Positions 3,308 through 27,765 of a stretch of DNA of 28,241 bases are shown one piece after another. Both the position numbers and the translations under genes were made by a program. The notes below the pieces were generated by a model that saw only the letters and a program-made list of their open reading frames with translations, was not told the DNA's origin and ran no database searches. Each line of letters begins with the position of its first letter. Within the stretch, counting starts at the first letter, position 1. The DNA is from Irineochytrium annulatum (Eukaryota > Chytridiomycota > Chytridiomycetes > Chytridiales > Chytridiaceae), in contig JADGJL010000262.1 in assembly GCA_027600665.1 (NCBI GenBank), forward strand, positions 1 through 28,241, given 5' to 3'.

Positions 3308-6300
3308 TTACTCCGCGTCCTCGTCCTCATCCGCTCCGTCGTCCCAAGCAATAAGAAGCAGTTTACCATCCTGCTGACCAATATACAAATGTTGATCATT
3401 CTCGGACAGCGCAACGCTGATGACCGGCACCGAAACATCATACCGATGAAATATGTGCAGCCTGATTCGAATTAGTTTGCAAGTTCTGGTGATTACAACG
3501 TACCCATTGACTTTGACCAGCATGATCCCATTCCGGTTATCGGCGCACGCAAAGTACTCCCCACTTTTGGAGATCTCGATGTCCTGCAATCTCCACGGCA
3601 TGGTTTTCTCGCAACACAAGCTTCCGTTGATGGAATACACATGCAGGAAAGACATCCCTGACGCCGCAACTGTTGCGCCCGAGCCGGCAGAAAATGAAGG
3701 GGAGCGTTTCGGGGTCGCCTTCTCCTTCCCATCCGTAGAAGCCGCGGGCGCCGTGGGTGCCGATGTTTCCTCCGAATACAGGAGGATTGATGCGGCCTTC
3801 GTCATCTTCACGAGCTGGATTGACAAGTCCCCGTGCCGACTTCGAGAAGACGGAAAGATGCTCCGTACGTATTTTGCGTCGTGGAAAGCGTGAAGGATGC
3901 AGGTGCCATCCTAAAACAAGAAAATTTGGTTAACGGTTGTTGCTATGCTCGGTGCACACCTTTGATGCTGACGCTACTAAATCATGCTCCACATTTGCTG
4001 CCACGCTTGTAACCTTGGAATAACGTTATAGCAGATTGTAGAGGAACGGCGTATTCTACCTCATCATCGTGCCCGTAGAATATCCTGAAAGCGTTCTGGC
4101 GCACTGTAATAGTATCCGCAGCCCCTGGAATCAAGTCCCAGGCCATTGTTGTTGTATCTCTGGACCCGGTCAACAGAGTCTTTCCGTCCTCCGAGAGCGA
4201 CACGCACGTTACGATATCGTAGTGACCATATATAATATCCAATTCTCTCAATTGGCTTCCAGGGGTGTCCAGTGCAGTGATGTGAAAGGAAGCATCCCAA
4301 TGCCCACCAGAGAATAAAAACCGGCCGTCGAATGAGCACGCAAAGAGTGATGGTCGGGAGGATAGGCTTGACGCGAACACGGAGGATATAGATCTGTTCG
4401 GGAATGCCCCGGGATCAAGTTCAAATTGAAACGAGTTGCTGTCGGGGTTTTTGACGGCAGAGCACCGATGCAGTCCGACGGTGAGCGACGAGTCAACAGT
4501 CACAATGGAGTGCTTTTCGTTCCCCAGAGTTCCGCTTAAGAAAGACTGCAGAGACCCAGATCCTGCCGGTGGCAGCCCCGCCTTGTGGACGCCGTTGCAT
4601 GAGCCGACAAAATGAATCGCGCTCCCTCTCAGTTCGACCAAATAGCTCCGATGCTTCGCCGGTGTTAAAAACAATGACAGCGTTGCACATTGGGATCGGG
4701 GCAGTCGTTGCGGGTGAGGCTTCATAAACAACTGTGAAGGCGTTTGACCGAAATTGTTGATCTGATCCTCGAGCGACTTCTTCTCGACCGGATCCTTTAC
4801 GGAGTCGATATTGATGGCGCCTTCGTACGTAAGGTGATAAAATAAGTTGTTTGCCTTCGCCGCGTTTTCTCCTGTTTGTTTGAAGCCCCAAATCAGGTCG
4901 ATCCATTCGTGGAGGTGTTCCGAGACGTATTCCCCCTCCAACGCGTCGCGGTGGACCTGTATAAATTCCTGCGCAGATGACGCCCACTTGGGAAGAATTA
5001 CGTCGTCAACGACAGCCCCGGTCTGCTTAGTCCCCAAATCGAACTTATTTGTGTTCAAAAGAAACTCCGGCATGTAGAAAAACTCAGGGATTAACTCTTT
5101 AACGTCGCTATTCCCTGTAAAAACAGAATCCCAGCATCCTGCCATTGAATGAAACTGTCTAAGTGGGAGTAAGTAAATACGGAACAATACGAACGAATAG
5201 TTATTCACAAACCGGTCGGGATGATCGAATTTGCCCGCTTGAAGGGCAATGTGCAAGCTAGCAAATGGTTCAAGTCGAAGAAGATAGAAGAGGACTGCCG
5301 CAGACGTCGAATAGTGAGTGCCGTACAGAAACCGGGGGACCATAGGATCTTCAAATTGCCGGTATCTTTCCAAATATTGCTCCAAACGCGCCTCATTGAG
5401 TGCGCCGATGGGTTTCGATAAATCACGATAATTTAGAGGATCACTTAAGTCGATAGTCTCCGACGTGAAGTTGACCAAGACCCACGGAAATACGGGGTAC
5501 TGCGTGAGATCATTATAAGTCCTGCCTGATACCGTGTTTAGATGCATCAAGTATTCGAAGTTAGAAATCTCGCGCCTCTGCCATCGTTCGACAATATTAT
5601 CCCTTTTAATGATGTCCCTCGGGCTTCGAGCGTCCGTATTGAGCAAATTTTTGGGGCGAAGTTGGGCAATTTTGGTCAAAAACTTTAGCTTATCCTTCGA
5701 TTGGTGAAAATTGAATAGATAGTTTGTTCTGTCTGTGAAGAAGACTTCAAGGGCGGAGTTCCGAAGCATGTACCTCCGGAGGTACACTTCTCGTACACGG
5801 CTTAGATTCCATTTTCGCTCTCGAAGCAAAACCTCTGATTCCGCCAGCAGAGCAAGGATTCTTTGATCCGCTTCGTTCAGGTCTGCAGCAGTACCCCTCA
5901 GATCGGCCTTGAACGACAGATGCTGCGTTGTTAGCTCTAACCGGCCCTTTACCGCCGTCATCAGCAAAATCATCTCGCAGTCCGCGCCGCAGAGGAATCG
6001 TTCAGTGTCATCGGAAGGAGCTGTGGCATTTGAAGACGATCCAACGCTTCGGCTCCCCTCGTTATCTTTGAGAACGTTCCAGTCTTCTTCATCATCTTCC
6101 TCCATCGTTAACGAGGCCTCCGATGCATCGCGAAGGAGCTCTGCTGTCGATCCCGACTTGAAATGCATTCGGAGTTTCTCAACCTGAGCTTTTCGTCGAT
6201 CCGCAGCTGCCGTCGATAACGCGGCCGCAGCGCTTTGCTTCATCATAGCACGCTCGATTCGTGGTGAAGACTGCAAGCCCATTTTATCCTCGTGTCCGAC

Positions 6301-9300
6301 GTAACTAACTTTGTCGCGTCTTTTCGAAGCATCCCGATGATCATCAAATTCATAATTTTTCGCAAGCCGCGGCCGCATGCGAAGATAGTTCTCCATCCTA
6401 TCCAGTTTCCAATGGTCCCCTCGATTATCCATTCCCCAAATGCCACGTTGCTGGGTTAGCTCTCTATACATAGACAGCCACTGCCGCGTGATATACCGCC
6501 TATCTGATTCAATAGAGAAAACTTTTTCGGACATTCGGCTGATTTCGTCGTTCCGAAGTGAGAAAGCCAATGTCTGAACTTTCGTCGAGAGCAACGCAGC
6601 TATTTTGGCGACCGAGATTTCGTCCCGTCTCCAACGGACGAAGGTTGTCCTGGCAACTTTTGCAAAGCGCTTGGTGACCAACGGAACGACGCTGAAGTCT
6701 TCCTGCTCGACTTGCTTCAAGGCTGGGAACAAGTGCCCGTTGTAGATATCGGCCCAGCTCGACGATGACACCATCTCCACAAAGCGATCCTCTCCCGTTT
6801 CGCTAACAGACAGCGTTTGCGTAGAAATAATGAACGAGCCATCGTTATTCTTCAAAGCGGCAAGGTAATCCTGCCAGCGCGTGACGACCAGCATGTATAG
6901 CGGCAGAAGTATTCTGTTGTCGAGGTCGGAAGAAAGGGAGAAGGCGTCATGAACCGCAGCAATGATCTGCAGAACCCTTTGCCGAGAGTGCGTGTCGGCA
7001 AAGGATTGCGCGTGCTTGTCGAGTAAGGGGACTAAATGTGGCATTGCATTCAACCAGATTGCCGTGTCAGGTATAGCTAGCGCGCTCAGGAGTATGCGTA
7101 GCTCAAGCCTTATAAGTCCGCCGCTCCGAGTAGGGTTCTGTGACCGCGTTAGGATATCAATAAAAAACTGATAAACACCTTTTCATTGACATCCGATTGA
7201 GAAATATGAGTGATTCCGAAGTCAATAAAGGAGCTTAAAACGTTCAGGCATTCTTCAGCTAGTTGTTTGCATTCCTCAAATGGATATGAAACTCGTATTC
7301 CGACGTTATCACTGTTCCGCCGGGAAGGAGCTTTGCCTTTGCTGTCGGTACGATATTTTGATAAGCTTATCAAATCGCTCGCAGAGCCAATATCTAAATG
7401 CGTTTGGTTGGAAAAACCAAGGAAGGTCACCAAAAAAAAAAAAAGGATATTATTTTTGCTTTTACCTTTAAGCAAATCCGCCGGCAGACTCGAAGAGAGG
7501 GACTTCAGGTCAGCGGTCACGGCATCATGAAGATCATGGTGGCTAAACATAATTTCTTCCGCAAAACAAAGGAGGTTCCAAATATTCTCCGTTTTTACCC
7601 CGGAGAAAATCCCTGCGTGGCCGAGACCAATTTCCCTTTTAACCTCGCGCAACAGGTTTATAAGTATATCGCGAATAAAGCCGACTCCGGTCCCCTCTGC
7701 GTGACTTCTGTTGAGAGTCCACACAAATGCTGCGGTCTCCTCCATGAGCCGCCATCCGCGCTTGTCAGCCTCAAATGCCTCGTATATAATTGTAGATATT
7801 AGAGCCGTTATAGAGGACCGATACTCCGCATCGTCTTAAAGGTTGTAAGCGATATAGAAAAAATCAAAATAAGTGACGGTGAACGCTCCGTACCCTTCTC
7901 TGAATTGGCGCTGCTTACGGATGCTGATATGGGTGAATCATCGGTGTTGTACCCAATTTTCGGAGGGAGGTGAGGGCCAGAGGCCGCAGGCACCAACCGT
8001 AATAACAGCACTTGCCACCCATATATTCCCCGAAACGCCTGAGCATTACCCTTAAAGGAGGATATATACGCTAGGTCCTGAATGACCTTGCTTTCCAGAG
8101 CCTTGTCCCCCGTATCTGATGAGTTCGCCATTCTGCGATTAAATGATCCAAGTAAAGCGCAAAGAAGCCCGGGGTTCTTAATGGCGGGTGCATCGAGCTT
8201 TTTGAGGTCGGTTACCGCCGCGTTTGAACTCCACTCCAGCAGCTGTTTTTCCAAAACCAACTGCAGCATGGCGACGTAAATTTGGGAAGTTAAGGTATGC
8301 ACCCCAAAAGTATCTCCGCACGCGAGGCCGCACAGGACGTCCGCGCTCGATTGACTGTTAGTCATGTTATATCCAACCGCTTCATCCAATCGAACTCTTC
8401 GTTTCCATTTCTCCGGCACTTTAGGCGACTGGTACGATCATTAGAATACTAGCGTGGAAGGAAGCCTACTTTTAACAGAAATAGGGCGAGCTTGAGAATA
8501 AGAACACGAACGCCTTCGTCTGAACATTCGGAAAGAAGCCATAGCATCAATTCAAGAAACGTGGATTGAGACGCGACCGCTTCGAGTACGCCGTTCTCAG
8601 AGTCGCAGCTCTTCAATAAGAACCTTAAAACGTCACCCATATGTATCGGATCTGTCTTCATCGCCCACAAACTGCCCAGTATTCGCGCAAAGTCCTCTGA
8701 GCTAATGCCAGAACTTGTCAGCGATGAAAGTGCCCGGAACAATGCAGCTCGTATAAGTGGTATAGTTGCAGCATCTGGCCGCCCAATGATCAATCTTGCC
8801 AGTAGGTCCGGAGGAACGAAGTCAGGAGGGGCATTCCAGTAATATAACTCAAGCACATCCATCAAATAAGTAACACCGTATCGGCCCCGCCGCTCTACGT
8901 TGGTGGCCCCGTCGATGGCCTCGTCAGCTGCCTCATCAGTTGGCGCGACGTATTTAGACAAAAACTCAATGTAATCAACTTGGACCGGTGCCTCGGCGAT
9001 GGACCAGAGTCGAAAGTTGTAAATAAGGCTATCCTGAAGCTCAGCGAAAAGTTCATCAGAAAAGCTTAGCCCTTTAAAGGCAGAGGCCACTTTTGATAGC
9101 GCTACCACAGTGTCTAACATTGGTAGCGTCAAGCACCGAGGATTTTGTTGTTGAAGTAGGAGCGATATGATTTTAGGGCCTTTTATAGTCGCGAAACGCT
9201 CGGCATGGCTGGCGTCGTCGCCGATGAGGACGCCGACAATTCGCAAGAAGGTACTCAGGCGTTCAGCACTAACGGCTGCAGTTACACCCGTTACTTTTGG

Positions 9301-12300
9301 ACGTGCAGATTCTTCGGCTGACGGCGCGCATGTCGGATAATCCAAGTGGGTGACGAGAGGAAGAACAATTCCAATGCCTCCCAGGGCATGAACTGCCGTT
9401 CGGAGGGATTTGGTAGAACACGCCAAAACTTCTTTAGCCTGTCCTTTCCCTAAGCGCCTTGGAGACACGTCGCAACAGGAAGTATTCGGCCATCCTATCT
9501 CCACCGCCGTCGGGTAGAAATGCAGCACAATTCTGTTGAACCAGATAAGCAAGAGGAAAGGCTGAGAGAATATTTGAATGTTTGTGAGTTACCCACTTTG
9601 ATGTCAATGTGCCATCAAACAACGTTTTCGCCATGTCTGGATATGAGACGGCATCACTGGCGCGGAATTGACTGGCGTGGCCCTTCCCTAAGTCAAACAA
9701 CGCCGACAGCTGGCTCGTAGAAAGACATTCATCCATCATGTAAACAGAAGACATTTGCCCTGAGAAGCTATGAACACAGAATGCGGAAAGGAAATCCATG
9801 GAGGCGCTATTTAAATCTCCCGTCGAATAGAGAGGCGAGATGACTTCGGCATCCAGCCCACTTAAAGCTCCATCGCTGTCCGAGCTGACGACGACACCGG
9901 CGGATCCGACCCGATTTATGGTGTATTCACAAGACTCGGGGAACTCTAGCTTCTCTTGAGCTCTGACTTGACCGTTCACAAACAGCACGGTTTCGGTCGC
10001 ACCAAACCATGGGAATTTGGGAGCACTTTGGCAAATAGCAATGAAGTACCACCTGATCGTTTGCTAGTAAGTACAGAGAAGAAAAAAATAAAAAAAAATA
10101 AAAAAAATTGAAAAAACGGGAGAGAATACTAACCGCTGCGGTGATATCTGATAAGTGGCCGCGCTCAGCTCAAACGCTTTTCCGCTCTTCGTGACTCTTA
10201 AAGTCAAAATCCGATTTTGAACAAACAGCTCGATCCCGGACCCCTGGCCATTCTGCAGACTGACTATAACCATCCTCGAGTCGTCCGCTCGGGATCCAGC
10301 CTCCATGCCCTCCTCAATCTTCACCCACGTGAAAAATGAATACCCGGCAAGGTTGGACGGAAATTTCCCCAGCGGCGGAATTACGATGCCACTCGACTTC
10401 CCCGAGAAATAGAAGAAATCCAGCTCCGCTTCTTTCCGCTGAGACAATTTCCGCACACATCTCAGTAAGGAGTCGTAGTAGATCGGCAAGACAATCTGCC
10501 GGGAGGGGGGGCGTTTCTCTAAAAGCAGACTGCCGGACAGTCGCCGGCCTAGACGTGGTGAACGCGGCGAATGCAGCGGCGCTTGGTAATTGGCGTTCGG
10601 CTGAAGGGTTTCCGGTCGCCGTTCGACCGTTGATTCACCAGTTGGGACCGAAACCTCAAACGGTCGCAGACACTGGAACAGCGCCTTCGCCTCCGCGACA
10701 GTTAATGAATAGTTTGCAATGCCCTGTTTCCATATGTTACATCTTTCCCTCAAGCCAAAAGATACAGCAGATTGTATTCACCTGAAATAGAGTAGCCGTG
10801 CGTTCGATCAAGCGCTCAGATCGACACTCAGGAAGCACCTTCCTCAGCAACAACATCGGAAGACCGACCGTCGTCAACACGACCCGGTTCATCTCATGCC
10901 CCTTCGCCAGGATCTCAATCTTGTCAAGCACATCGATCATTAGCGCCTCCGGCAAATGCGGCTGGAGGCTAAGTAGAGCGTCGACGACGTCCGGGTTGCG
11001 GATAACGATAGGGCCTGGTATATTGTGCCTCTGGTCTGGCATCCACTGCGGCACCATGAGGCCAAACAGACACGCGATGTAATTCGGCCACGGGCTCCAA
11101 TTACCCTTCACGAACACGCGACGACGCATTTCCTCATATCCTTGCATTTCTTTGAAAGCCGACCTCGCATAATCATCGCTCGATATGATCCGCGCCAGCG
11201 TCAGGAAGATCGACGCGCATAATTCGTGGTACAACAAAGTGACGCCCTCCGACCGCTCCACGATCACGTCGTTGTTATCGTCCAGGAAATTGATGTTAAA
11301 TAGGGATAGCACGTTCTCGAAAATCAGGAACGAGATCAGGCTGCGTCTTAGCAGCCGGCGACTTCTCGAGCCCGGCGGGAAGGTATTTATAAGGGATTGA
11401 AGCTGATGCAAGAGTGAAAACACCAGCTTGGGAGTCCGGAACGGGATTTCGTCTCGAGGAAAACACGCGAAAAACTGCGACATCCATTCTGACGAGTGTG
11501 AGAACCTAACGAGCTCGGCGACTTCGGTGCTTGTGGTGGCCACGGGAAGGAACGACGTTGACACGGCACTCGTGACAGCAAGAACGATTGCGCATACCAT
11601 TTTCTCTCCCTCGCTCTTCACTTCACTCATCCCCTCGTTCGCCTTCACATAGGAGGCCATCAACGCCGTTCTTGCTGCCTTATTGTTCGACACATACAGC
11701 GCCATCTCCGTGGACGTGTCTATGATCTCCTTCAGCATCAGCAAAAGGGCTAACCTCATGGACTCGTCCTGAGCGGAGTCGTTGTCAAGGTTCAACTCCA
11801 AGAACAGAGGCTCGAGGAAATCCAACCGCATCATCGAGTTAAGAACGATATCAGTGTGAAGATGGATCAGCCGCCGGAAGTATCTGCAGAAATCGAGCCG
11901 AATTGATACCGTCAAGGCATTAAACTTCTTCGCTCTACACAGAATATCCAATAGAACGGACACGGCGCCGGTATTGAAGGATTGGGACACAGAGACAGCT
12001 CCCTCCGTAAGTTCTTTGACTGCATCCGACAAGAATGCCGACAGCGGGGACGGGCTGAGAATAAACCTCGAGCTGTACACTTGCGTCCAGACGCCGAGCT
12101 GTTCCATCCAGCCTAAACACAGGGCTTGCCGCTCGCCAACATCTACCGAGGGCACTGCATCGGCGGTAGCCCAATCTTCTAATCCGAGCATTATCTTCAG
12201 GAACTGCAGAAGTCCCAGCTCGAATATCGGTATCGTAGTTGCTGACACGGGTTTCGAGCTCTGCAAGGACTCTAGATCCCTTAACGCCCGCAGGAGAATC

Positions 12301-14590
12301 CGAAGTATTCTCTCCACATGCGACGCCATCTCACGGCCCGACTCGTTCCTCCGCGATGTGATTGGGGTCTGCGGCACCACAGGGGACGATATGGAGTCCG
12401 CCCCAGCCTCGATGGGGTTTCCCGGGTATAGACACATGGACAGCGCGTAGCTGAACAAGATATTCACCGGCGACAGGTCCCCAACAATAAGGCCGTCACG
12501 CCAGCTCGGCCCGGTCGACAACTTCAAATCAGATATCGGTTCTAGGAAGTCGGCGTAGACGCCTTCAGGTGAATCGAATCTCTCTAATCCGATACAAACT
12601 TTATTAAATTGCTGCCTAAGGAATGAGTAATATAACGGGCAGTACCTCCAACGGACGAGACCCACTGCAGAAGAAACGCGACGCCTCTAAAGCCATCCGC
12701 CTGCTCCATCCTTCTGACGGAGGTTCCGCTGATTCTCGACAAAAAATCGACGATGCTCCACACAAGTACCTGCGCTTTGAACTCACTCCTTAGCTTCCAA
12801 CCGGGTATAGCTTCATACGCAACGTCGTCAAAATAAGGCGGGCGCCGCAGAAGCTCAGCCAGCCGCGTTAGCCCCTCGTTCTTTAAGAGGTGCCTCCGTA
12901 CGGTCGTCGGCTTGGTGACTAGTAAAGACCCGAATGTTGTTAGGCTAAAGATTCGGATTGAGAAGATGATTGCGGAGGGGACGGCGGGTGCGTCGCTGAA
13001 GTAGAATAGGATGGTGGTAACGATCTCTGCAGCTCTCGAAAAGAACTTCGAGTCGAGCCGAGGGTCCCTCACCGGTGGCGCGGAAATCGTTGAGGCGGAA
13101 TTCCCAGCCTGGCGCACCCACTCCCTCCACCGCGCGCGGGGGTCCACACACCGCGACAGCACTAGCATGCACACGATCGTAAGGTTCCCCAAGTCGGTCA
13201 GCACGCCCAACAGCTCATCCGTGGCTGTCTCGCTGTCATCCAACCTAATCATTGCCGCGCCGCTCAAATCCAGGATCGTGAGGACCGCGTCCAGAAACCC
13301 GTGTGACATCATCGCGTCCCTGTTTCCCTCGTATCTGGTGAAAATCTCGATGTGGCGGAGGATGGTGAGCGCGAACGCGACGATCTGCGGGCACTTGTCC
13401 TTCTCTCCGTCTGGAGCCTGCTCAGACAAACAGACTCCCAGCTTCTCCGCAATCACAGCGAGGCCTTGAAGGGAGCCGAGGATGGCTTTATGTGGATGAG
13501 ACGGAAGCCGCGCCTCCGGAGTGGCTGATACCAAGAAGAAGGTAGAATTAAAAAACTGTGATCCTAAGCTCCGACCGACTTCCAAATCCCGGCGAACTCT
13601 ACCCCTACCATCGCCGCCACCCAAATCCTCTATTCATATAACAACCACGCCGCTTGCCCGACCACACGCCACCCTCGACCACCGAATCCGCCAATCTCCA
13701 CCACCACAAACGATTGATAAAACACCACCGCGACAGATAGCCAGATACTCCAGTCCAGCACAAAGGACGTTTAGTGTGCCGATCGGGGTGACGAAGGGTT
13801 GTGCGCGCCGATAGATGGTCGGTAGTGGCAAGCGGAGCGGCGCGATACCACCCCACACCACTTTAACCTTTTACGCTCTTCGATATCCGCCCCACCCGCC
13901 CCTGCCATCGCCCATCCCTATCAGCCCGTCGCTGCGCTCCGCTGCGTCTCTCAGCCCGTGTTCCGGGTTACACCGCCCTACTAACTCGCGCTCCTCCAGT
14001 GCCGTCCACCCCACACTGTCCCTAAAATCAACGAACACACACCTTTGGCAGTTGTGATCGACGGAGACTTAGTGGCGGCGAATATCCTCGAGAACAAAGG
14101 TACCGCCAAGGTCTCTGTAGACGGATTCGCCGCGAGCGCTGGCGCGGTCGGAGCTGCGGCGGTGTTTCCAGCGCTGCCGGCAGTCGAGATGCGTTCGGCG
14201 GTGGCCGTCGACACCGCGAACAGGGACACGATTTCGTCATCGTCAAATCTCAATTTATCGGCTATATGATGCCCGCCCAAAAAAGGGATCAGAACAGGAA
14301 GCGATCTAAGGAAAAAGGAGATAGATAACTTTACCTTCGCCGTGGGTATAGCTGAAGAGCGCCATAAAGCTTATGACGGGCGCGAGTTTATCGTCATTGG
14401 CGTCCGTATCTATCGTATTTAGACGAGCGCCATCAACGCGAGCCGATCGTCCCCCAGTAAATCCCCCTTACTCACCCGCATCCGCCAACATCGCATCCAG
14501 CAACTCCTCCGAACCCTCCGGAAGTGGTAGAGCGGCGGCGTGTTCTTCCTCCGCGGCCGAGCAGCATGGCCTCGCGTCAACGCTGGACAT
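3308..14590 (-). CDS. BEACH domain protein (neurobeachin/LRBA-like, ConA-PH-BEACH-WD40), about 3,360 aa
   Basis: BEACH proteins are giant scaffolds in vesicle traffic, lysosome-related and autophagic processes. My exon chain, with phases that agree, is 14590-14476, 14409-14335, 14261-14043, 13524-12646, 12598-10782, 10723-10134, 10052-9593, 9561-8470, 8428-7894, 7834-7466, 7393-5213, 5158-4060, 4013-3960, 3910-3308. Residues about 1100-1310 look like the concanavalin-A-like lectin region (FTWVKIEEG, WYFIAICQS, VLFVNGQV). A PH-BEACH module (GRLELTTQHLSF, KWNLSRVREVYLRRY) is near 2515-2620. The BEACH domain near 2640-2910 has RWQRREISNFEYLMHLN, ALQAGKFDHPDR and NSDVKELIPEFFYMPEFLL. C-terminal WD40 repeats include SGGHWDASFHI and the split DGTCILHAF. 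No FYVE domain follows, so it is not Alfy-like. One base appears to be missing at 7162-7167. The first three exons (14590-14043) are less certain because a 518-nt gap follows them. Length suits the family (roughly 2,500-3,700 aa). Confidence 0.93.
5159..5212 (-). other. 54-nt in-frame intron inside the BEACH domain
   Basis: The genomic frame stays open across this stretch, but the conserved BEACH segment KFDHPDR..FHS is interrupted by 18 residues that no BEACH protein is expected to have. Removing GTTTGT...CTTAG restores DRQFHSMAGCWDS in phase 2. An ORF-only annotation would wrongly retain it. Confidence 0.8.
7162..7167 (-). other. apparent one-base deletion in a T6 run (A6 on plus) within the BEACH gene
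   Basis: The minus-strand frame ends ...DVNEKVFISF and then meets a stop, while the conserved downstream frame resumes as FIDILTRSQNPTRSG with no possible intron between them: the nearest GT-AG pair spans 11 nt. Adding one T to the run gives VFISFFIDILTRS and also makes the exon 7393-5213 end in the phase (2) that the next intron needs. A homopolymer sequencing error is the simplest reading; a real disabling mutation is the alternative. Confidence 0.8.
7394..7465 (-). other. 72-nt in-frame intron with a T13 tract
   Basis: Donor GTAAAAGC follows LPADLLK and acceptor CATTTAG precedes the resumption as IGSASDLISLSK, phase 1. The intron holds a run of 13 T on the minus strand (plus strand A at 7432-7444). 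Its length is a multiple of three and has no stop, so the ORF reads through it into an implausible ILFFFLV segment. Confidence 0.75.
10053..10133 (-). other. 81-nt intron with repeated T tracts
   Basis: Donor GTTAGT, polypyrimidine-rich body (plus-strand A tracts at 10082-10116), a TACTTACTAG stretch and acceptor GATCAG. Splicing joins YQISPQR to WYFIAICQS in phase 2 inside the ConA-like lectin region of the BEACH protein. Confidence 0.75.
13525..14042 (-). other. 518-nt intron or promoter between putative BEACH exons 3 and 4
   Basis: Exon 3 ends at 14043 in phase 1 with a GTGTGT donor, and exon 4 begins at 13524 in phase 1 after TATCAG, so direct splicing is possible (ITTAK to ATPEARLPSHP). 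At 518 nt it would be about six times longer than the next-largest intron of this gene. The sequence is GC-rich with C-rich, low-complexity tracts on the plus strand. It may instead hide small exons, or be the real promoter with the three upstream exons belonging to another gene. Confidence 0.4.
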
Positions 14591-18265: not shown

Positions 18266-21200
18266 CTAACTAGCGCGCAAAAGGTGAAGACGCAGGCTAC
18301 GGGAACCCGGGAATAACCTCTCTATACTTTCGCAGATAAAGAGGAGGCACCAACCGCACCACGACGGCGGCCGGTACGGCGTCCAAATGCGAAATTGTAA
18401 GGCCCACCGCTCATTTCTCTGAATCCTCGCGAAGAGCGCGACCTGCCCATTGGCGACGGCACTCCCAAACTTACCCTCGTCCTCGATGACGCACCTCTGC
18501 AGGCTTCCATCCACCATGATGCATGCCTGCCGCTCACCGAGCACGAGCGCCAGGTTCGTATAGTAAGCCGACGCGAGACGTTCGAGAAGGAATGCGCACC
18601 GGCCGGCGTGGTCCATCGCTGCCATAGCTGGAACACGCAAGATGGACGCGAAGGCCGGCGCCGTCGTCGACGAAGGCGCCGGCGCGTCCCCTTCTACATC
18701 CGACGCCCAGTTTCCAACGTCCAGCAGCCAGTCGTCGTTGTTGTCGTCGTCATCGTCGCCAACAATTATGACTCCGTCTGCCCGCTCGATCGCCTTTGTC
18801 GCTCTCATCTGCATTCGGAAGTAATTCTCCTCCGCCGTGCACCCCATCCCGGCTTTCGACATCAAAGTCGGTGATGCATTTTGCTTAGGCGCTGGCGGGT
18901 GTTTTGGTTTACCGCTTCCCGATCCAGGTCGCAGCCATGCGGCCTCGTCCATGTTCCATCTTTTGCGGCCAACCTCTCGCGCTTTCATGTGCCGTTGCAC
19001 CCGCATAACGGTCCCGTCCAGCGACTCCATCTCCCCTGCCTCTACCTGCCTAAACCTGCACCAGCCCCCGATCCCCTTGCGGCCCCTTCTCCTAAACGCG
19101 CAAAACACGTTCAGCATGGCTACGCTGGCGGGTACCGCCACGTCCCACCATCCCGCGGGAAGGCTTAAGGCCATAGGTCCTTCCTTAGCGGAGACGGACT
19201 CGATGAAACAGGTGTACGAGAACGCCCGGGAGCAGAGCATTGAGACGTTAACGGCGCCCATTCCCGCAAGAAAGCAGGCGAGTTCCCGGCAAGCGTGGTC
19301 GACGTCCCCCGCATCGACTGACCAGCAGTCGAGAAGGAAGCGGGCGGACTGGGCCGGAAGTTGGAAGCGGGACGTCAAGTCTTGAGCGGCCTCCCCGTCG
19401 GCCGTCAATTTCATATCGCCGAATGCGTCCTCAACGAGAAATCCAAGCGTCCGAAGGAGATAGAGGGTCCAGATGAAATCGTCGGTCGTCGGGCGACGGT
19501 AGAACGGGAATTGCGTGTAATCGCCAAAGTGGCGGGCGATGAATAAGAGTTGAGAGTCCAGCTGTTACGTAGAATACCCCTTTAAGCAAAACCAACAAGT
19601 TGCCAAGAAAATTACAGGAATGTAGCTGAATGTCTGGTTCGGGAAGTCCACAAAATCGTCGACACTGTAGAGCCGATAGCAGAAGCCAGGTCCCAGACGA
19701 CCGGCGCGCCCCTTGCGCTGAACTGCGGATACGACGCTCTGCATAAGTTAAATGCTAAGAAAAACAGTCCAAGGCAAAATCCGAACACGCACAGTGGTTG
19801 AGAGACGGCTGGACTGGATCCTCATATTATGCGACCAGTTAACGGACCACTGGAGCCCGGAGTCGATGACAAAGCCAATACTCGGGAAGGTAAGGGATGT
19901 CTCAGCGATGTTGGTGCAGAAAATCACACGCCGCGTTCCGTCGATTGCCGACTTCTTTTCCTGCGCCTACACTGCGCAGCCCGAAGGTCATTAACCTTTG
20001 CCCGGCGCTCGTCTGCCTCCTTCCTCTTCTGTGCCTTCGTCTTCTTTAGGCCATTTGGTTTTGGTCCTCGCAAAGCTTCCTCTTGCTGTTGCATATGCAA
20101 TATTAGAACGTAGAAATTAACGACAGAACTAGCGGCAGACACACCTCTTCCACCATAACGGCAATCGCTTTCTCGTCAACTTCCTCTCCCATCGACCTCT
20201 TCAGAGCAATTCTTAGCAATACGTCCATCTCCTCCGCCACAAACTTGCCGTTACCAGCATCAAGCACTTCATCCTCCTCCCAGGCGGCCCCTACCTTCGG
20301 ACCCGGCCAATCGCGCATATCCCCTCTCTCCAAAACAAACTTCTTTTCGGCGTCCTCAACACCTGAGTGCATCTCAAACGCATGGACGTGAGAGGCTGCC
20401 TGTGCGCCGACGCGCAGTGCGAGAATTTCCGGGAGGAAGTCGCAAGCCATCTGATGTCGCGCTTTTTCGGCAAGAATACGAGGATATCTGGGTTGGCGTC
20501 GTAAGGTGTCGCCACGTGGTCAGCGAGGGGGTTGCCGTCCGGACTGTAGCGGAGCGGGTGGCGGACGTGAAGGTCCACAACCTGGTCCACCGCGGAGCGA
20601 ATGTACATGCCCGAGGAGCGCTTAAGCGGACCGCCGTAGGCCTCTTCGATCGGAAAGCTGCGCCCCATGACCTTTAAAAATTTACTAAACCGAGTACGAA
20701 AAACATTCCTACTCACGTCAATAATGTCGCAGCCAGGGAAGAACTCGGTAATCTGATCCGTGTCCACCTTCGCCGACATCATAATAAGCCTTAACGCCGG
20801 GTTCTGCTCCATTGCGTGCTTGACGATGCCGAACAGGAATTGCAGTTCAGCACATCCTTCGTGCACCTCATCTAACACGACGACGGAGTAATTCATAAAG
20901 AGATGGTCACGCGCTGCGTATTGAAGCATCATGCCGTAAGTCATACACTCGATGATGGTCCGGTCCTTGTTAATCCGTGCCCGTTGTCGGCCAAGGTGTA
21001 AGCCGACGTGGTCCCCAATAGCGCTTCTACGGTCCTTGGAGAGATGATCCGCAAGAGAAGAACTCGCCGTGCGGCGGGGCTGGGCGACGAGGATTTTCTT
21101 GGACGGTGAGAGCTCGCCACGGAAAAAAAGTTCGTTGTATAGGAATTGCGGGATACACGTCGATTTCCCACTTCCCGTTGCCGACAGAATAAGCGACATT

Positions 21201-24200
21201 CGCGTTTTTAACAAGCCATCGACCAGCTTTGCACGGGACCCATAAATAGGCAATTCCCTGTATCCGAAGAGTGTTGAGCAAAATCTTCATGTAGCAGAGC
21301 ACAAACCTATCAAACATTAGCAACTCTAGCTTAACTACCTTGTCGCACTCCACCAGCACGCTTGCATCTATCACTTCCCCCATCCTTTCAAACAAATTTT
21401 CTACCCCTTTGGCGACACCAACAAGGGAAGTCGCCCTATCCTTCAACGCGCGGGCCTCCCCCCTTAGCCTCCGATATTCTTCCACTGAGGCTTTCCCCTC
21501 CGCCTCAAGCATCCTCCTCGCCTCCTCGACCTCGTCATCATACGCATCCACTTCGGCCCACGACTTGCTGCCCTTAAAAGCCGCTGCAACGACCGCATCT
21601 CGATTCTGTATGGCGGCGTTCAACGCACGCCGACGCACCGCAACCACATGCCCCGCTAGCTGTGCCCTCACGTTCGCGGATTGAGCGTGCAAGAAAGTAA
21701 CGTTACACTTCCACCACATCGCTGTATCGTTTTGCAGATGTGTGTGTATGGCGGCGCCAAAGGAACCTTCGACGGCCGCAAGCCCGCCGTCGTCGTCTAG
21801 GTCGACAGCGCTGCCGTCGACCTCGCGTAGCCGCAGTACGCGCGCCGTCAACGCCGCGGTGTCGCGGCGACGAGGCGGGGTGTAGTTGAAGGTGAGCGCG
21901 GGGTCGTCTCGCTCCGTGACATCCTTTGGTAGGCGCGCCGAGGATTCGACAAAGAGGTCCCACAACTTCTGGATGTAGGGTCGCTGCTCCTCCTCGATGA
22001 AATCGACGTCGGCGTCGGTGCGCCGCAGGCACTTTTGCAAAAGGCTGTCGAGGGGCGATATGGTGGGCGTGCGCGTCCGGATCATATAGCGTTCGACGGC
22101 GTGGAGGACAAAGGAAATGTTCAAGCCCATCTCGTCGATGCCGGCGGAGAATAAGGCGTTGAGGATGTCGAGGAGATCTTGACGAGTCGGCTGGCCGACG
22201 GGGACATCGGGGAATTCAAAGCGGCGCAGTTGTACGAGCATAGAATCGATTTGACAGACAAGCTCGTCCCGGCTTACGTTTGAAGTCAAGAGTTTAATGA
22301 GATCCTTGTCGCGTCCAGCCGATGGTGAACTCTTTTCGACCGAATATGCTACAAATGCAAATTAATTAAGAAAACGCTAAACAATTCGTTAACAATACCT
22401 TCGACCCCTAGCTTTTTCGCAACGCGTTGGATTGTCTCTTTAACCCCTTCCTTGGTGTAATCAAACGCCTCCATCGGCTGGACAGCAGCAACGATCCGTT
22501 GATCCCAAATGATCAAAAACCGATCTCCATCTAAATCACCCCCCGAAGCCATATCGGCCGCGGGTCTGTTCCCCTCTGTGGAGAACACCACCACATCCTC
22601 CAGATGCGCCAGCTCTTTCACCCATACAGCTTTAACCACGCGTATATCCGATGCGTGATAACAAGGGTTACGCACGTAGCACACCTCCCCCTCCAGCACC
22701 CTTACCATCCCCACCCCGCGCCGCTCGACGCCGCGCACGCCCGGCGGGTCCGCCGTCGCCACGCATATATGGACCTCGCCCGCTCGGAGAAGGCCCGTCG
22801 GGTCCGCGACGCCGTAAACAAGTCTGGCGTCCCTCAGCGGGATGTACACGCGGCGCATAGGGTCGGCCCTGCCGAGGGAATCAAGCGCGAGGAGCGCATT
22901 ATTGTCATCGTCGTCAAGTGCCACCACGGGTCGCGAGCTGTCGCCACCGTGGTCTAGCTGGACACGCTTGCGCCAGCGCGAAAGCTCTTGGAGCTGGCGA
23001 TCGCGGAGGTCGTTCCAGGCCTGCCGGAGCGAGCCGCGGCCGCGGGCACGTTGTGTCGGGTTTCGGATAGCGCGGAGGAGCTTGGCCATGAGGTGGGAGT
23101 TGCCACATAGGTATAAAAAGTCGAAGGCTGAGAGGACATCAACGGCCATGAAGCGGACGGCATCCTTATACTGGTTGTCGATCTCGAGAAGAAGCTAAGC
23201 ACCACGGCTAGTAAGATATCGACCGGCCATCAACTTTACCTCGGTTGGAACCCCTCTCTCAATTAACAGGGCGATAATTTGGCTGTTGAGTGGTCCGTCT
23301 GCCGACGGTTTCGCCTTTCCAATCACGACAAGATCTAAAAAGCCTCGTTGAAGTACATCCACCGCCTTATTGGGTCGCGTCCGGTCCTCAACCCGCACCT
23401 TAAGCTTCTTCATCGAATCCCTCAGCACAATTTTTCTTCCCATCAAGCGCTCATCCAGCGTCAGCATACCTTTAACCCCACAGCCTCTGATCTGCAACGC
23501 AGCCGGCACGAACGCGCCAGTTCTTCCACCCCCGTCTTTATCCACACAGCCGGCAGCCGCGAGCTCCTTCACGACCTCGGGACTGGCCCTCCCGCACCCG
23601 TCCGTGAAGCAGAAGCCATTCCGCGTCACATCCTTCTCCACGGTCACGTCCAGTCCCTCAATCCTGACGACGGGCTCGCCGTACACGTTGAACATCAGTC
23701 CTGAGTACTTGATGAACTTGCCCCGGTCCGCGATGGCTCCGAGCCCGGTCCCATCCAGCATCGCGTTCCGAGCATGCCCGCGTGCCATCCAGCATCCCAG
23801 CGAGCCCGTCACGCGCTGCGAACGCGTGACGGTCAGGAACTCCCAGCCTTCGAAACCGTTTTGGAGAAATTGCGCGTACGCGGCCAGGTGTACGTCCGAG
23901 CTGCGATCCCCACGAAACACGACCTGGATGAAGTCGACGCCGGGGCTATAGAGGGTCGCGGCCATGCAGTTAGGGGACGGGTCGCGGCGTTGGTACGAGG
24001 CCGAGTTGGGAGGCAGAATGCAAGCGTGTAGGAGACGCGGCGGTAGCGGCTCGTCGTAGCGCTGGCGATGGTGCCTTGGAAGAGCCTCTGTGCACCTGTC
24101 GGCTGTGGTATTGGACGAGGAGGGCGACAATGCCTGGGGGGTCCCGGCTTCGGGCGATTAGTTGGTGACAGCTGAACAGGTGCTGCCGATGAGGACGCCG

Positions 24201-24576
24201 AGCCTGCCAGGGTCTTCGCCGGTTGATCGTCAGCGAGGAACGCGGCGAGATCCTTCTCTGTGGCGAAGAGACTGGCGAGCACCTCGCGCTCGGACCGCCG
24301 AGCCTTCGACACCGACCCGATCGTGGCCAGCCTTGCGGCGCCAGGCCCAGCATCGTCGTCATCGCCAACGCAGATGACTTCCAGCTCCCGTTGGCGCTTG
24401 GAGGGGCCTGGTCGCTGTGCCGCGAGCGATCGGGCTCGCTTGCGCGAGGGACCCGCAGCTGCTACCGGCGACCCACCGCCGTCGACCACGATAGCGTGTT
24501 GCATCTCCGCAGGCAGCTGCAACCATACGTCCGCCTCCCAGCCGGGCGGAGGGGAGAGCGACCGCGCCCGCTTCAT
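18266..24576 (-). CDS. RNA-dependent RNA polymerase / DEAH-box helicase fusion, about 1,958 aa
   Basis: One gene encodes a cellular silencing-type RdRP followed by an RNA helicase. In-phase exons are 24576-24178, 24133-23240, 23194-22399, 22348-21307, 21257-20717, 20671-20145, 20085-19996, 19960-19793, 19738-19616, 19561-18266. Residues 1-133 form a disordered, basic N-terminus (KRARS, RKRARS) with a SUMO-interaction-like VICVGDDDD. The RdRP core spans about 165-680: SLGCWMARG, FCFTDGCGRAS (307-317), QIRGCGVKGML, LNSQIIALLIERGVPTE, GVADPTGLLRAGEV, VRNPCYHASDIR and catalytic GGDLDGD (D651, D653, D655). A helical, Glu/Arg-rich linker (about 700-1043) follows. The helicase has RELPIYGSRAKL, motif I ATGSGKST (K1075), Ia QPRRTASSSLADHL, II DEVH (1173-1176), III SAK instead of SAT (1205-1207), IV ILVFLP, V TNIAETSLTF and VI QRKGRAGR (1493-1500), then a ratchet/OB-like C-terminus. 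One base appears missing near 20452. The pairing implies dsRNA synthesis coupled to RNA remodelling in RNA silencing; that role is inference. Confidence 0.92.
18743..18772 (-). other. SIM-like motif in the helicase C-terminal region
   Basis: Residues about 1791-1800 read VIIVGDDDDD, a hydrophobic core followed by an acidic run, the classical SUMO-interacting-motif pattern. It lies in a hydrophilic insertion between the helicase ratchet region and the OB-like C-terminus. It closely echoes VICVGDDDD at the N-terminus. Pattern only; binding is untested. Confidence 0.5.
19961..19995 (-). other. putative 35-nt intron (or second frameshift) before helicase motif V
   Basis: The lysine-rich frame ...KEADERRAK must change to the frame EKKSAIDGTRRVIFCTNIAETS, which has a stop four codons upstream. 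A GTTAAT...CGCAG intron of 35 nt does this in phase 0. It is shorter than all well-supported introns here (41 nt or more). One missing A in the A4 run at 19956-19959 would also join the frames. Confidence 0.5.
20452..20467 (-). other. apparent one-base deletion between helicase motifs IV and V
   Basis: The frame NPDILVFLPKKRDI is the conserved motif IV region, yet it runs into unrelated sequence. The next conserved frame resumes as MACDFLPEILALRVG, one base out of step. Adding a base at 20452/20453 gives LPKKRDI-x-MACDFLPE, close to the usual DEAH pattern; adding an A to the A5 run at 20463-20467 is an alternative. A 29-nt intron GTATTC...CATCAG would keep phase but remove the conserved motif. 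Confidence 0.7.
22517..22543 (-). other. RdRP catalytic loop GGDLDGD
   Basis: The minus strand encodes GGDLDGDRF, the DxDGD metal-binding signature of the eukaryotic RDR/QDE-1/EGO-1 family (two-barrel polymerases). It is followed by LIIWD, also typical. The three Asp codons are at 22537, 22531 and 22525 (first bases). Viral palm-type RdRPs use GDD instead, so this is the cellular class. Confidence 0.95.
24352..24378 (-). other. SIM-like motif in the RdRP N-terminus
   Basis: Residues 67-75, VICVGDDDD, form a hydrophobic core plus acidic run after a basic patch (SKRQR). This is the canonical type of SUMO-interacting motif. Binding is untested. Confidence 0.5.
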
Positions 24577-25175: not shown

Positions 25176-27173
25176 TCAAGCCATCATTGTCCCTAGATCC
25201 ACATGACCACTATCCACCAATCCACCATCCGGCCCAATGACCCCTCCCACCGCCGGCGAACCATCATAAGGGCTATCAAACGGCCCACCGCTACCCCCAC
25301 CTCCTAGATCAATCCCTTCGAAATCCGCCAGCGACCCCGGCGTCCCAACGATCGGCGTGGACACGGCGCCGGCACTCGCCACTTGCCCACCACCGCCGGC
25401 GGCGGCCGCCGCCGCCGCCACCGCAATCTTCCTGGGCTTCGCGGGCCTCCCGCGCTTCTTAGCGGCTGGCCCCTGCGGACACTGCAGGCCGACGTGCATC
25501 CCCGCTATGTGCGGCGATGGCGAGTCGTCGCTCATGGTTTTGAAATGCTGCGGCGCGGGTCGGAGCTGTGGCAGCTGTTGCAGCCGGATGTGTGGCGCCT
25601 GCGGCTGGGGTTGGTGCTGCTGCTGGTGGTGGAACTGGTGGTGGAGATGTGGAGGTTCTGCGGACGGCGGGAGTGACGCGTGATGCATAGGAAGGTGTTC
25701 GTGGTGCAGCTGCGCGTGAAGCTCGTGCAGCATGGGCGTGTGCGACAGCTGTGGCGCGTTCTGGTGGTGCATGGCCAGGGCTTGCTGGAGTGTCGGTTGA
25801 AGAAGTTGTGGCGGGGGCGGCATGGGCGTGCCGAGGGCTGCGGCGAGGTCGTGGCCGATAGGTCCGACGACGCCGGCGTCGTGCGGGTGTTGTGACGAGT
25901 GCGGGGGGTGCGGGAGGCCCATCCCCACGGTCAAGTGGGCGTCGAGGAAGCCGAGGAGGCCCGTCGAATCCTCAGCTGTGAGGTGGGCGAGGTGAGAGTC
26001 AGTGAGGTGAGTTGCAGTTGCAAGGGCGGCGGCCGCCGCGGCGGAGGCGTCCGTGGCCAGTGCTGCAGCTGCTGCTGCGGCGGCGGCGGCCTCGATATCC
26101 TTCTTCTTAGGTCTTCCCCGACCCCGCTTATCCCCAGGAGCGGGCTTGGCTTTCGGTACGGGGGGCGGATTGTTTTTGCGCGCCTCCCGCCGGGCGGCCC
26201 GTTCCGACTCCCATTGTGCTTGCTCAGCCGGCGTACGAACCACCTTTGGCCGCCCACGGCCTCGCTTCTGCGGCACGGGTGGCCCGCCTAGCACACCGTC
26301 AGTGCCACCAGCGACAACGCTTGTCGGGGAAAGTTCCTGCTGCTCAGAAGGGGCGCCAGCGCCCTTCTTCTTCGGCTGATCGTCCTTGGCCTTCGGCGGC
26401 CGTCCGCGTTTCCGCTTGGCAAGATCCAGCTCAGGCTGTTGCGCATCCTGTGGCTGGAAATGCGGCTGCTGGTGATGGTCTAGCGTCGGCAGCATATGCT
26501 GTTGACTTGAATGTTGGGGGGTTGGAGGCAAGTCGAGGAGGGCGGAGAGGGACGAATTTGCCACCGAGTGACCCAAAACGTCGTGGTGTAGCATACTCAT
26601 ATCGAGGGGGTTTAGAGATATTGGATGTTCCATCATCATTAAGAGCTTGTCGTGAGTGGCGTCGTGAAGCGGAAGGTGGTGGTGCGTCGGATGCGAGAAG
26701 AGGTCGTCGTCGTGTGATGAGAGCGAAGATGTGGTCGGGAGGGGCTGATGCTGGTGAAGGTGAAGTGGCATCATGGCGGCGGAACTTACGGTTGATGCCG
26801 TTGTCGGAGCTGAGGACGTCGGCCCAACGGATATGCTCTGGTTGTTGCTGTGCATCGCCATGTTTGGCGGCCCGGCCGCGGGAGCCGATGCAAAGGTGAG
26901 GGGATGCAGGAACAGGGATTGATCGAAGAAAGGTGGGAAGCCAGCTATGGAGATGCCCGCGTCCTCGTGCTGACCAACCCCGCATCCGTTCTGGCCAAGC
27001 CCGTCTCCCTGTCCCGGCGCGCCGTGTCCACCGGAACCCTGTCCAATCGCGGCCCCCATCGGCATCGTCGGTGTAGGTGCTCCAACTCCGGCGATCCCGC
27101 CCCCGATTCCACCGCCGTGACCGTGCACGCCGGGGCCTCCGCCGGGGAGGGGGGCGCCGCCCATGTCATCCAT
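25176..27173 (-). CDS. AT-hook protein with four hooks, about 665 aa
   Basis: The ORF is open from before 27233; the first ATG is at 27173 (MDDMGGAPL), giving about 665 residues, and an upstream 5' exon is possible. Numbered from 27233, four AT-hook cores are visible: KRKRGRPPK (273-281), QKRGRGRPKV (322-331), DKRGRGRPKKK (368-378) and KKRGRPAKPRK (592-602). AT-hooks insert the RGRP core into the minor groove of AT-rich DNA. Around them lie Gly/Pro-rich, His/Gln-rich and Met-rich tracts, poly-Ala runs after hooks 3 and 4, and an acidic C-terminus. No zinc finger, bromodomain or homeodomain is seen. The first three hooks are spaced by about 50 residues and the fourth by about 220. A chromatin architectural or transcription-accessory nuclear protein is likely; partner and targets are unknown. 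Plus-strand ORFs across this GC-rich gene are shadows. Confidence 0.85.
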   Translation of the reverse strand: MDDMGGAPLPGGGPGVHGHGGGIGGGIAGVGAPTPTMPMGAAIGQGSGGHGAPGQGDGLGQNGCGVGQHEDAGISIAGFPPFFDQSLFLHPLTFASAPAAGPPNMAMHSNNQSISVGPTSSAPTTASTVSSAAMMPLHLHQHQPLPTTSSLSSHDDDLFSHPTHHHLPLHDATHDKLLMMMEHPISLNPLDMSMLHHDVLGHSVANSSLSALLDLPPTPQHSSQQHMLPTLDHHQQPHFQPQDAQQPELDLAKRKRGRPPKAKDDQPKKKGAGAPSEQQELSPTSVVAGGTDGVLGGPPVPQKRGRGRPKVVRTPAEQAQWESERAARREARKNNPPPVPKAKPAPGDKRGRGRPKKKDIEAAAAAAAAAALATDASAAAAAALATATHLTDSHLAHLTAEDSTGLLGFLDAHLTVGMGLPHPPHSSQHPHDAGVVGPIGHDLAAALGTPMPPPPQLLQPTLQQALAMHHQNAPQLSHTPMLHELHAQLHHEHLPMHHASLPPSAEPPHLHHQFHHQQQHQPQPQAPHIRLQQLPQLRPAPQHFKTMSDDSPSPHIAGMHVGLQCPQGPAAKKRGRPAKPRKIAVAAAAAAAGGGGQVASAGAVSTPIVGTPGSLADFEGIDLGGGGSGGPFDSPYDGSPAVGGVIGPDGGLVDSGHVDLGTMMA

Positions 27174-27765
27174 CCGAGCGCGCCCTGTCCGCCGATGCGC
27201 GGTCGTGCGATGCCGGCCGCAGGTGCCGTCCAACCACCAGCGCGCGGGCGGAGTTCCGTACGGGACCGCGAGCTGTCGACGGGAGACGTCGAGCGAGCAA
27301 CCGATAGGAGGGCCAACGGCGTGAAGACCTGCGAGGTCGGAGGCGTCGTCGCTGGTTCGCGATGGGGGCGGACGAGATACGTTGGCCTCTCTTTATGGGA
27401 TGCTGTCTAGACGACGGTGTTTTGGTTGAGGACCAACGCAGCAGCAATTTTCAAGCGCATCAACCTGCTCGACGAACCCGCCCGACCTCTCGCGAATGTC
27501 TACGAACCTCTCCTGGTGCGTGTAGACCGGGTGGGCCGATCGGGGACCTGCATCGTGGCGAGCATTGGCGGGAGCCGGTGGTCTGAGGACGCTGAAGTCA
27601 CTATACGGGGACGACCGCGGTCTGGCCGTTCTGAGCGGGGCCGGAGGTTCGGAGATGTATTTGGCCTCAGGATCGGCAAGATCGGGGAGTGTGGCGTCGT
27701 TCGAAGGCCTTGGCGACGATGACAGTGTCTTGCCGCGGCTTCTAACTTGATCATTGACCGCACAG
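27174..27765. promoter_or_regulatory. divergent region between the AT-hook gene (minus) and cytochrome b5 (plus)
   Basis: The start regions of two divergent genes face each other here. Both strands have open frames with believable composition: minus 27750-27393 (contains VYTHQERFVDIRERSGGF) and plus 27565-27750 (contains SGSARSGSVASFEGLGDDD). I cannot tell which, if either, is coding. A 5' exon of the AT-hook gene or the first exon of the cytochrome b5 gene may lie inside. A CTAAC branch-like site (27742-27746) and CACAG (27761-27765) precede the first certain cytochrome b5 exon. Confidence 0.4.

Follow-up and report, generated by a model that had tools for sequence, protein, structure and literature searches.

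This study concerned a gene on the minus strand of a 28,241-nucleotide stretch of DNA (the window: positions 1 to 28,241 of contig JADGJL010000262.1) from Irineochytrium annulatum (Chytridiales, Chytridiaceae in the NCBI taxonomy), whose source assembly comprises 26.9 Mb in 1082 contigs. The gene joins a silencing-type RNA-dependent RNA polymerase (RdRP) to a C-terminal DEAH/RHA helicase. This had been claimed in an original prediction made from the sequence alone, and it was supported by a paralogue in the same genome, by four other genera and by the phylogenies of both halves. It is proposed, with moderate confidence, that the product is one polypeptide in which an RDR/QDE-1-type RdRP and a linker are followed by a diverged DEAH/RHA motor, and that this motor likely draws template into the polymerase, yielding double-stranded RNA (dsRNA) for Dicer. 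No description of an RdRP-DEAH fusion was found in the open-licence literature, supplements not covered. The domain make-up was already visible in automatic annotation, so the novelty lies in recognition and characterisation.

Read from 24576, the gene runs from a low-complexity N-terminal stretch through the RdRP core and a linker of about 220 residues into the helicase, with GGDLDGD, Walker A (GSGKST), DEVH, TNIAETSL and QRKGRAGR colinear along the strand. The GenBank model of the gene, P0001 (1867 residues), was 98% identical to its spliced reading, and a Pfam scan of P0001 matched PF05183, PF00270 and PF00271. A Phlyctochytrium protein, P0002, was colinear with the window by tblastn from 24040 to 20307, including the linker exon at 22304-21291. 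The parts of the gene are as follows.

18266-24576, minus strand: whole fused gene, RdRP, linker and helicase (HK101_005725, protein P0001); 18266 is the end of the frame in the original prediction.
22400-23965, minus strand: RDR/QDE-1-type RdRP core including the GGDLDGD loop; PF05183 matches at 23848-22979 and 22852-22418, and P0006 by tblastn at 23965-22400.
21307-22348, minus strand: bridging exon, an open frame from LNALFSAGID (RdRP C-terminal block) through the linker to LLMFD before the helicase.
20453-21257, minus strand: RecA1 and the start of RecA2, with GSGKST, DEVH and motif III (SAK).
19616-19957, minus strand: end of RecA2, with TNIAETSL and QRKGRAGR; contains the intron 19792-19739.
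18929-19561, minus strand: HA2-like region (winged helix, ratchet); P0005 matches by tblastn to 18929, and the fold is taken from an Obelidium relative.
18297-18700, minus strand: OB-like C-terminus in two frames, split near 18405, with a stop at 18299-18297; from by-eye comparison with relatives.

Because exon 22348-21307 spans the last RdRP block to LLMFD, the bridge between the halves consists of a single open exon and one intron. In a whole-genome search the exon matched residues 777-1135 of P0002, the linker with E = 3e-17. Seven introns of 45-59 nucleotides (nt) interrupt the gene, and the junction peptides of all seven are present in P0001. The two joining introns named in the original prediction (22398-22349, 50 nt; 21306-21258, 49 nt) proved exact, keep the frame and are both used by P0001. 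An in-frame TAG at 23197-23195 and four further introns (20716-20672, 20144-20086, 19792-19739 and 19615-19562) had been omitted from it. The TAG was considered as a truncating stop and rejected, as it lies inside an intron confirmed by the paralogue. Introns and the two best-placed breaks in the reading frame are listed here.

23195-23239, minus strand: intron, 45 nt, holding the in-frame TAG; without counterpart in the paralogue, P0001 agrees.
22349-22398, minus strand: intron, 50 nt, leading from the RdRP into the linker; used by P0001.
21258-21306, minus strand: intron, 49 nt, phase 2, directly before ELPIY; position common to the paralogue (55 nt there).
20672-20716, minus strand: intron, 45 nt, before GR(S/A)(F/Y)PI; place and length common to the paralogue.
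20086-20144, minus strand: intron, 59 nt, within a charged RecA2 insert; P0001 agrees.
19739-19792, minus strand: intron, 54 nt; P0001 agrees.
19562-19615, minus strand: intron, 54 nt; P0001 agrees.
20447-20453, minus strand: frame break in the assembled sequence, at P0002 residues 1372/1375.
19950-19970 (near 19959), minus strand: probable second frame break, at the lysine-rich end of the RecA2 insert; 29-nt gap in P0001.

The break at 20453-20447 is certain in the assembled sequence, because the tblastn match to P0002 switches frame there (residues 1137-1372 on 21253-20453, residues 1375-1421 on 20447-20307) with no room for an intron. Further breaks are probable near 24141 and near 18405, and family-like C-terminal sequence (ISHLDAVP...) resumes in another frame from 18395 and ends at the stop 18299-18297. 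P0001 spans the first break by a 116-nt gap and both middle breaks by 29-nt gaps. A missing base in homopolymer runs can be guessed at as the cause of all of them, and they may stem either from faulty assembly or from recent decay. The original statement that all motifs lie in one spliced frame is right for the RdRP, Walker A and DEVH, up to about 20453, but not for TNIAETSL and QRKGRAGR, which lie past the break at 20453-20447 and past the probable one near 19959. As far as the sequence goes, the fusion is upheld, in a copy less clean than first thought; the original observation was partly confirmed, and its interpretation is partly supported.

A second copy with the same order of RdRP, linker and helicase was found on the plus strand of contig C166 (locus L013). 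Of 1828 aligned positions, 674 (37%) carry the same residue in the two proteins. Two frame breaks suspected in this copy were rejected, since its GenBank model, P0005, has no frame break and explains the two suspect joints by short introns, one of about 44 nt and one of about 40 nt. When the whole genome was searched with P0002, both halves in order were found only on contigs C166 and C284, other contigs giving one half alone. Around the RdRP loci on C579, C963 and C1, there was no match to a DEAH, superfamily 1 (SF1) or DExD helicase within 9-10 kb. A partial RdRP match on C1 (L016, C1:37251-37922; profile positions 61-236, E 4.5e-10), within a 949-residue open frame, is either a further RdRP relative or a fragment.

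The same order was looked for in related genomes, a check that the original prediction had proposed, and it recurred, so the joining is more than chance. Counting the second copy, there were at least 11 fused gene models, at least ten of them from at least five genera of Chytridiales and one metagenomic. The searches scored 7992, 7995 (best 120 listed) and 7996 candidates sharing most words with the query, and further members may exist. I. annulatum has two fused proteins (P0001 and P0005), Phlyctochytrium bullatum three (P0002, P0004, P0008), P. planicorne one (P0003), Entophlyctis luteolus one (P0007) and Siphonaria sp. JEL0065 one (P0006). The metagenomic member (P0009) has 1449 residues on one 5426-bp contig. 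For Chytriomyces hyalinus (P0048, P0049), RdRP, DEAD and Helicase_C all appear in the precomputed Pfam list, and the same three were found in all nine fused members scanned. Relatives thus do not all encode the halves separately, which the original prediction had named as a refuting outcome, but two taxa do have separate RdRP and helicase models. A third Obelidium model, P0050, is helicase-only. A viral origin was considered and rejected, as no relative turned up in two scans of viral contigs and the RdRP half belongs to the RDR type found in cells. A bacterial or archaeal member was likewise rejected: one scan of genome contigs gave only two from metagenome-assembled genomes labelled Deltaproteobacteria, with RdRPs of 25% identity. 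These contigs (L025, NYXK01000054.1; L026, NYXK01000162.1) carry a eukaryotic-type RdRP, matched no helicase of DEAH, SF1 or DExD type in the roughly 10 kb around it, and are likely eukaryotic contaminants.

Several comparisons place the RdRP half in the RDR/QDE-1 type. PF05183 scored 226.3 bits on the window protein (cut-off 23.8) and was found in nine of nine members. The GGDLDGD loop was present in ten of 14 family rows, the other four being three helicase-only models and P0048. In the predicted structure of an Obelidium relative, the RdRP half folds like RDR2 and QDE-1, with the same core and a DLDGD-type loop. The alignment to RDR2 covers only residues 395-963, the N-terminal part of RDR2 being without counterpart in the chytrid model, and the chytrid family differs from both enzymes in its added motor. 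Trees were built from 65 RdRP rows and, with more care, from 36 of those 65. In the latter the 13 family rows formed one clade (100/99), and a branch with support of 100/98 set them on one side along with nine rows from fungi, including four that carry a C-terminal SF1 helicase. Three oomycete-type helicase-RdRPs fell on the opposite side. The family polymerase presumably carries out RNA-dependent RNA synthesis.

The helicase half combines conserved ATPase motifs with altered coupling motifs. Motifs I (GSGKST), II (which reads DEVH, not DEAH), V (TN[IV]AE) and VI (QRxGRxGR) were kept in all 14 family rows. Motif III reads SAK in six, SAS in five, SAQ in two and SAT in only one (P0009), whereas 127 of the 130 DEAH rows used for comparison have SAT. 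The RF of the hook-turn was absent from all 14 and present in 124 of the 130. The family site reads IG(K/R), and shifting the alignment by one residue yields no F. The comparison rows are those sharing most words with the query and are biased to Prp43, and against them the family does not look like a genuine DEAH-box motor at either site. The RF hook-turn has been described as the key feature for translocation in Prp43 (PMC5262380), and the features lost here have been tied to the coupling of ATP hydrolysis with unwinding or translocation (PMC8025883, PMC5262380).

By profile the nearest DEAH family is Prp43/DHX15, with which the chytrid family shares the whole fold from RecA1 to OB, as seen in the predicted structure of Obelidium P0046 (aligned over 7-746), where winged helix, ratchet and OB follow RecA2. 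It differs in its DEVH, in the lack of SAT in 13 of 14 rows, in the missing RF hook-turn and in a charged RecA2 insert. This lysine- and acid-rich insert, between motifs IV and V, is short in P0009 and exceeds 200 residues in P0003. Of the Pfam models suggested in the original prediction, PF05183 was found on P0001, while HA2 and OB_NTP_bind gave no match in any of nine members at E <= 0.1, that region being seen by fold alone. A quick tree (46 of 144 rows) placed the 14 family helicase rows in a clade of their own (SH-like approximate likelihood ratio test, 100), outside the Prp43 rows. In the phylogenies of the two halves, which the original prediction had suggested as a check, each half thus forms one clade. 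The place of the family among other DEAH clades is unsure.

In the mechanism proposed here, the motor would pull template RNA, whether single-stranded or bound by protein, into the polymerase, feeding or stripping the template of its own enzyme, and the polymerase would make dsRNA as a Dicer substrate. On RNA, DEAH motors travel in the 3'-to-5' direction, which is also the direction in which an RdRP reads its template; a motor sitting on the template strand would accordingly move in step with the direction of the polymerase. From the changes in motif III and the hook-turn, the motor seems to have been retuned to grip, to take short steps or to strip bound protein, and not for long duplex unwinding. 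Cryptococcus neoformans shows that RNA interference in a fungus can depend on a Prp43-type motor: according to PMC6643885, small interfering RNA is lost in two PRP43 alleles, and Prp43 and Ago1 are co-purified with a G-patch protein. The I. annulatum genome has Piwi-domain matches on five contigs, and paired RNase III domains with Dicer_dimer on two. Because it thus carries Argonaute- and Dicer-like genes, a silencing pathway is likely present. Both folds, the single transcript and the single protein are predictions, and the polymerase presumably works and serves RNA silencing, with the motor presumably handling its template.

Several observations weigh against this proposal. Given the loss of SAT and RF, the motor may not translocate at all. 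The window copy carries a clear frame break and two or three more that are probable, and the structural models cover the Obelidium relative and single halves, never the whole chain. The source of P0006 marks it UNVERIFIED_CONTAM, and the P0048 model is without the GGDLDGD loop. In Obelidium mucronatum the halves are modelled apart, P0166 having only the RdRP and P0046 only the helicase, each listed at a contig of 492,193 bases, and Chytriomyces sp. MP71 has separate models (P0167, P0047), each listed at an 8,379-base contig. These paired halves on equal-size contigs speak for a merging of two neighbouring genes by gene prediction, but that explanation is scarcely credible: the open exon 22348-21307 begins in the last RdRP block and ends only where the helicase is about to start, the intron that follows is common to the C166 copy, the linker is homologous to that of Phlyctochytrium, and the metagenomic member fits whole on its one short contig.

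The frame breaks, of which the C166 model needs none, raise a different doubt, namely that the window gene is a second copy in decay, with function confined to copies of the C166 type. This is doubtful, though it deserves weight, as all the breaks seem to go in the same direction, the motif residues are intact, and the end branches of the window copy (0.80 for the helicase, 0.77 for the RdRP) resemble those of the C166 copy (0.70, 0.75); assembly error explains the breaks equally well. The motif changes could also mean that the helicase half is a non-translocating scaffold or clamp which binds ATP and RNA and holds the template or recruits Dicer or Argonaute. Replacement of the motif III threonine in 13 of 14 rows and absence of the RF, the key to translocation in the Prp43 work cited above, would fit this, but a dead ATPase would not need GSGKST, DEVH, TN[IV]AE and the QRxGRxGR arginines, which are all kept, and this alternative is considered unlikely. 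The original prediction had instead interpreted the protein as a self-contained machine that separates the strands of its template or product in cis. Unwinding of this kind, of a duplex template or of the dsRNA made, would let a single template be copied many times. The conserved ATPase motifs in a DEAH/RHA fold agree with such unwinding, but it is quite improbable, being weakened by the loss of motifs that couple ATP hydrolysis to unwinding or translocation, and separating the product strands would undo the Dicer substrate.

Helicases and RdRPs occur together in other silencing systems. In Dictyostelium Rrp proteins and in oomycete proteins (P0032, P0033, P0043), a helicase and a silencing-type RdRP likewise share one chain, but there the helicase is of DExD/ResIII type and on the N-terminal side, whereas the chytrid helicase is C-terminal and DEAH/RHA. 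In P0032 (Peronospora), for example, the helicase (205-677) precedes the RdRP (1066-1615), with DEAD and Helicase_C before RdRP by Pfam. A weak nucleotidyltransferase match was also seen in P0032 (residues 1821-1919, MTPAP-like, E 3e-4, below cut-off); if it holds, helicase, RdRP and a Cid12-like enzyme lie in one chain. The family did not fit this N-terminal type, the RdRP grouping being judged on the oomycete-type rows. The contrast with Dictyostelium drawn in the original prediction stands in part: according to PMC3661229, a helicase domain and an RdRP domain are both present in each of RrpA, RrpB and RrpC, and the gene-deletion arms were set before the helicase and after the RdRP.

A C-terminal helicase is found in Dikarya, where Pfam gives RdRP and then AAA_11/AAA_12 in P0024 (Coniferiporia), P0025 (Rhypophila), P0027 (Coprinopsis) and P0028 (Scleroderma). 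Their RdRP halves are those that group with the chytrid family, but their motor is SF1, lies about 700 residues away, and is not accompanied by a DEAH motor. These SF1-fused RdRPs, sister to the chytrid family, come from basidiomycetes and one Sordariales-type ascomycete, Rhypophila. In the fission yeast RNA-directed RNA polymerase complex (Rdp1-Hrr1-Cid12), an RdRP also acts with a helicase, but as separate subunits and with another helicase family. Hrr1 is named as an RNA interference helicase in PMC5384783. The RdRP tree and Pfam order indicate that the chytrid fusion arose apart from the fusions with an N-terminal helicase, and that its RdRP is of one lineage with the RdRPs that carry a C-terminal SF1 helicase. 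A tentative reading is that the C-terminal motor was exchanged within one fungal RdRP lineage (DEAH in Chytridiales, SF1 in Dikarya), with the chytrid motor rebuilt as a polymerase-coupled feeder, independently of the slime-mould and oomycete type. One motor may have replaced the other, or each may have been a fresh addition.

The fused gene lies between two other minus-strand features. At 3308-13633 is a Neurobeachin-like gene, with BEACH (E 4e-119), PH_BEACH and WD40 matches on the open frame 3982-7182 and a WD40 piece at 3311-3910. At 25176-27392 is a 738-codon open frame, rich in Q, H and A and in basic stretches, which gave no Pfam match; by eye, these KRGRPPK-like stretches resemble AT-hooks.

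Silencing RdRPs work with helicases in many organisms, and the role of the helicase is hard to separate when the subunits are loose. A natural fusion fixes their ratio and geometry, so that the contribution of the helicase could be tested on a single purified protein and its single-site mutants. Two motor features regarded as general among DEAH-box enzymes are also broken in this family, which so offers a natural experiment on how ATP is coupled to movement. With it, the helicase-RdRP fusions known so far gain a DEAH example, which supports the idea that coupling the two activities tightly is useful in itself. If the proposal is true, an RdRP and a helicase that are separate subunits in other silencing complexes would form a single dsRNA-making machine in chytrids.

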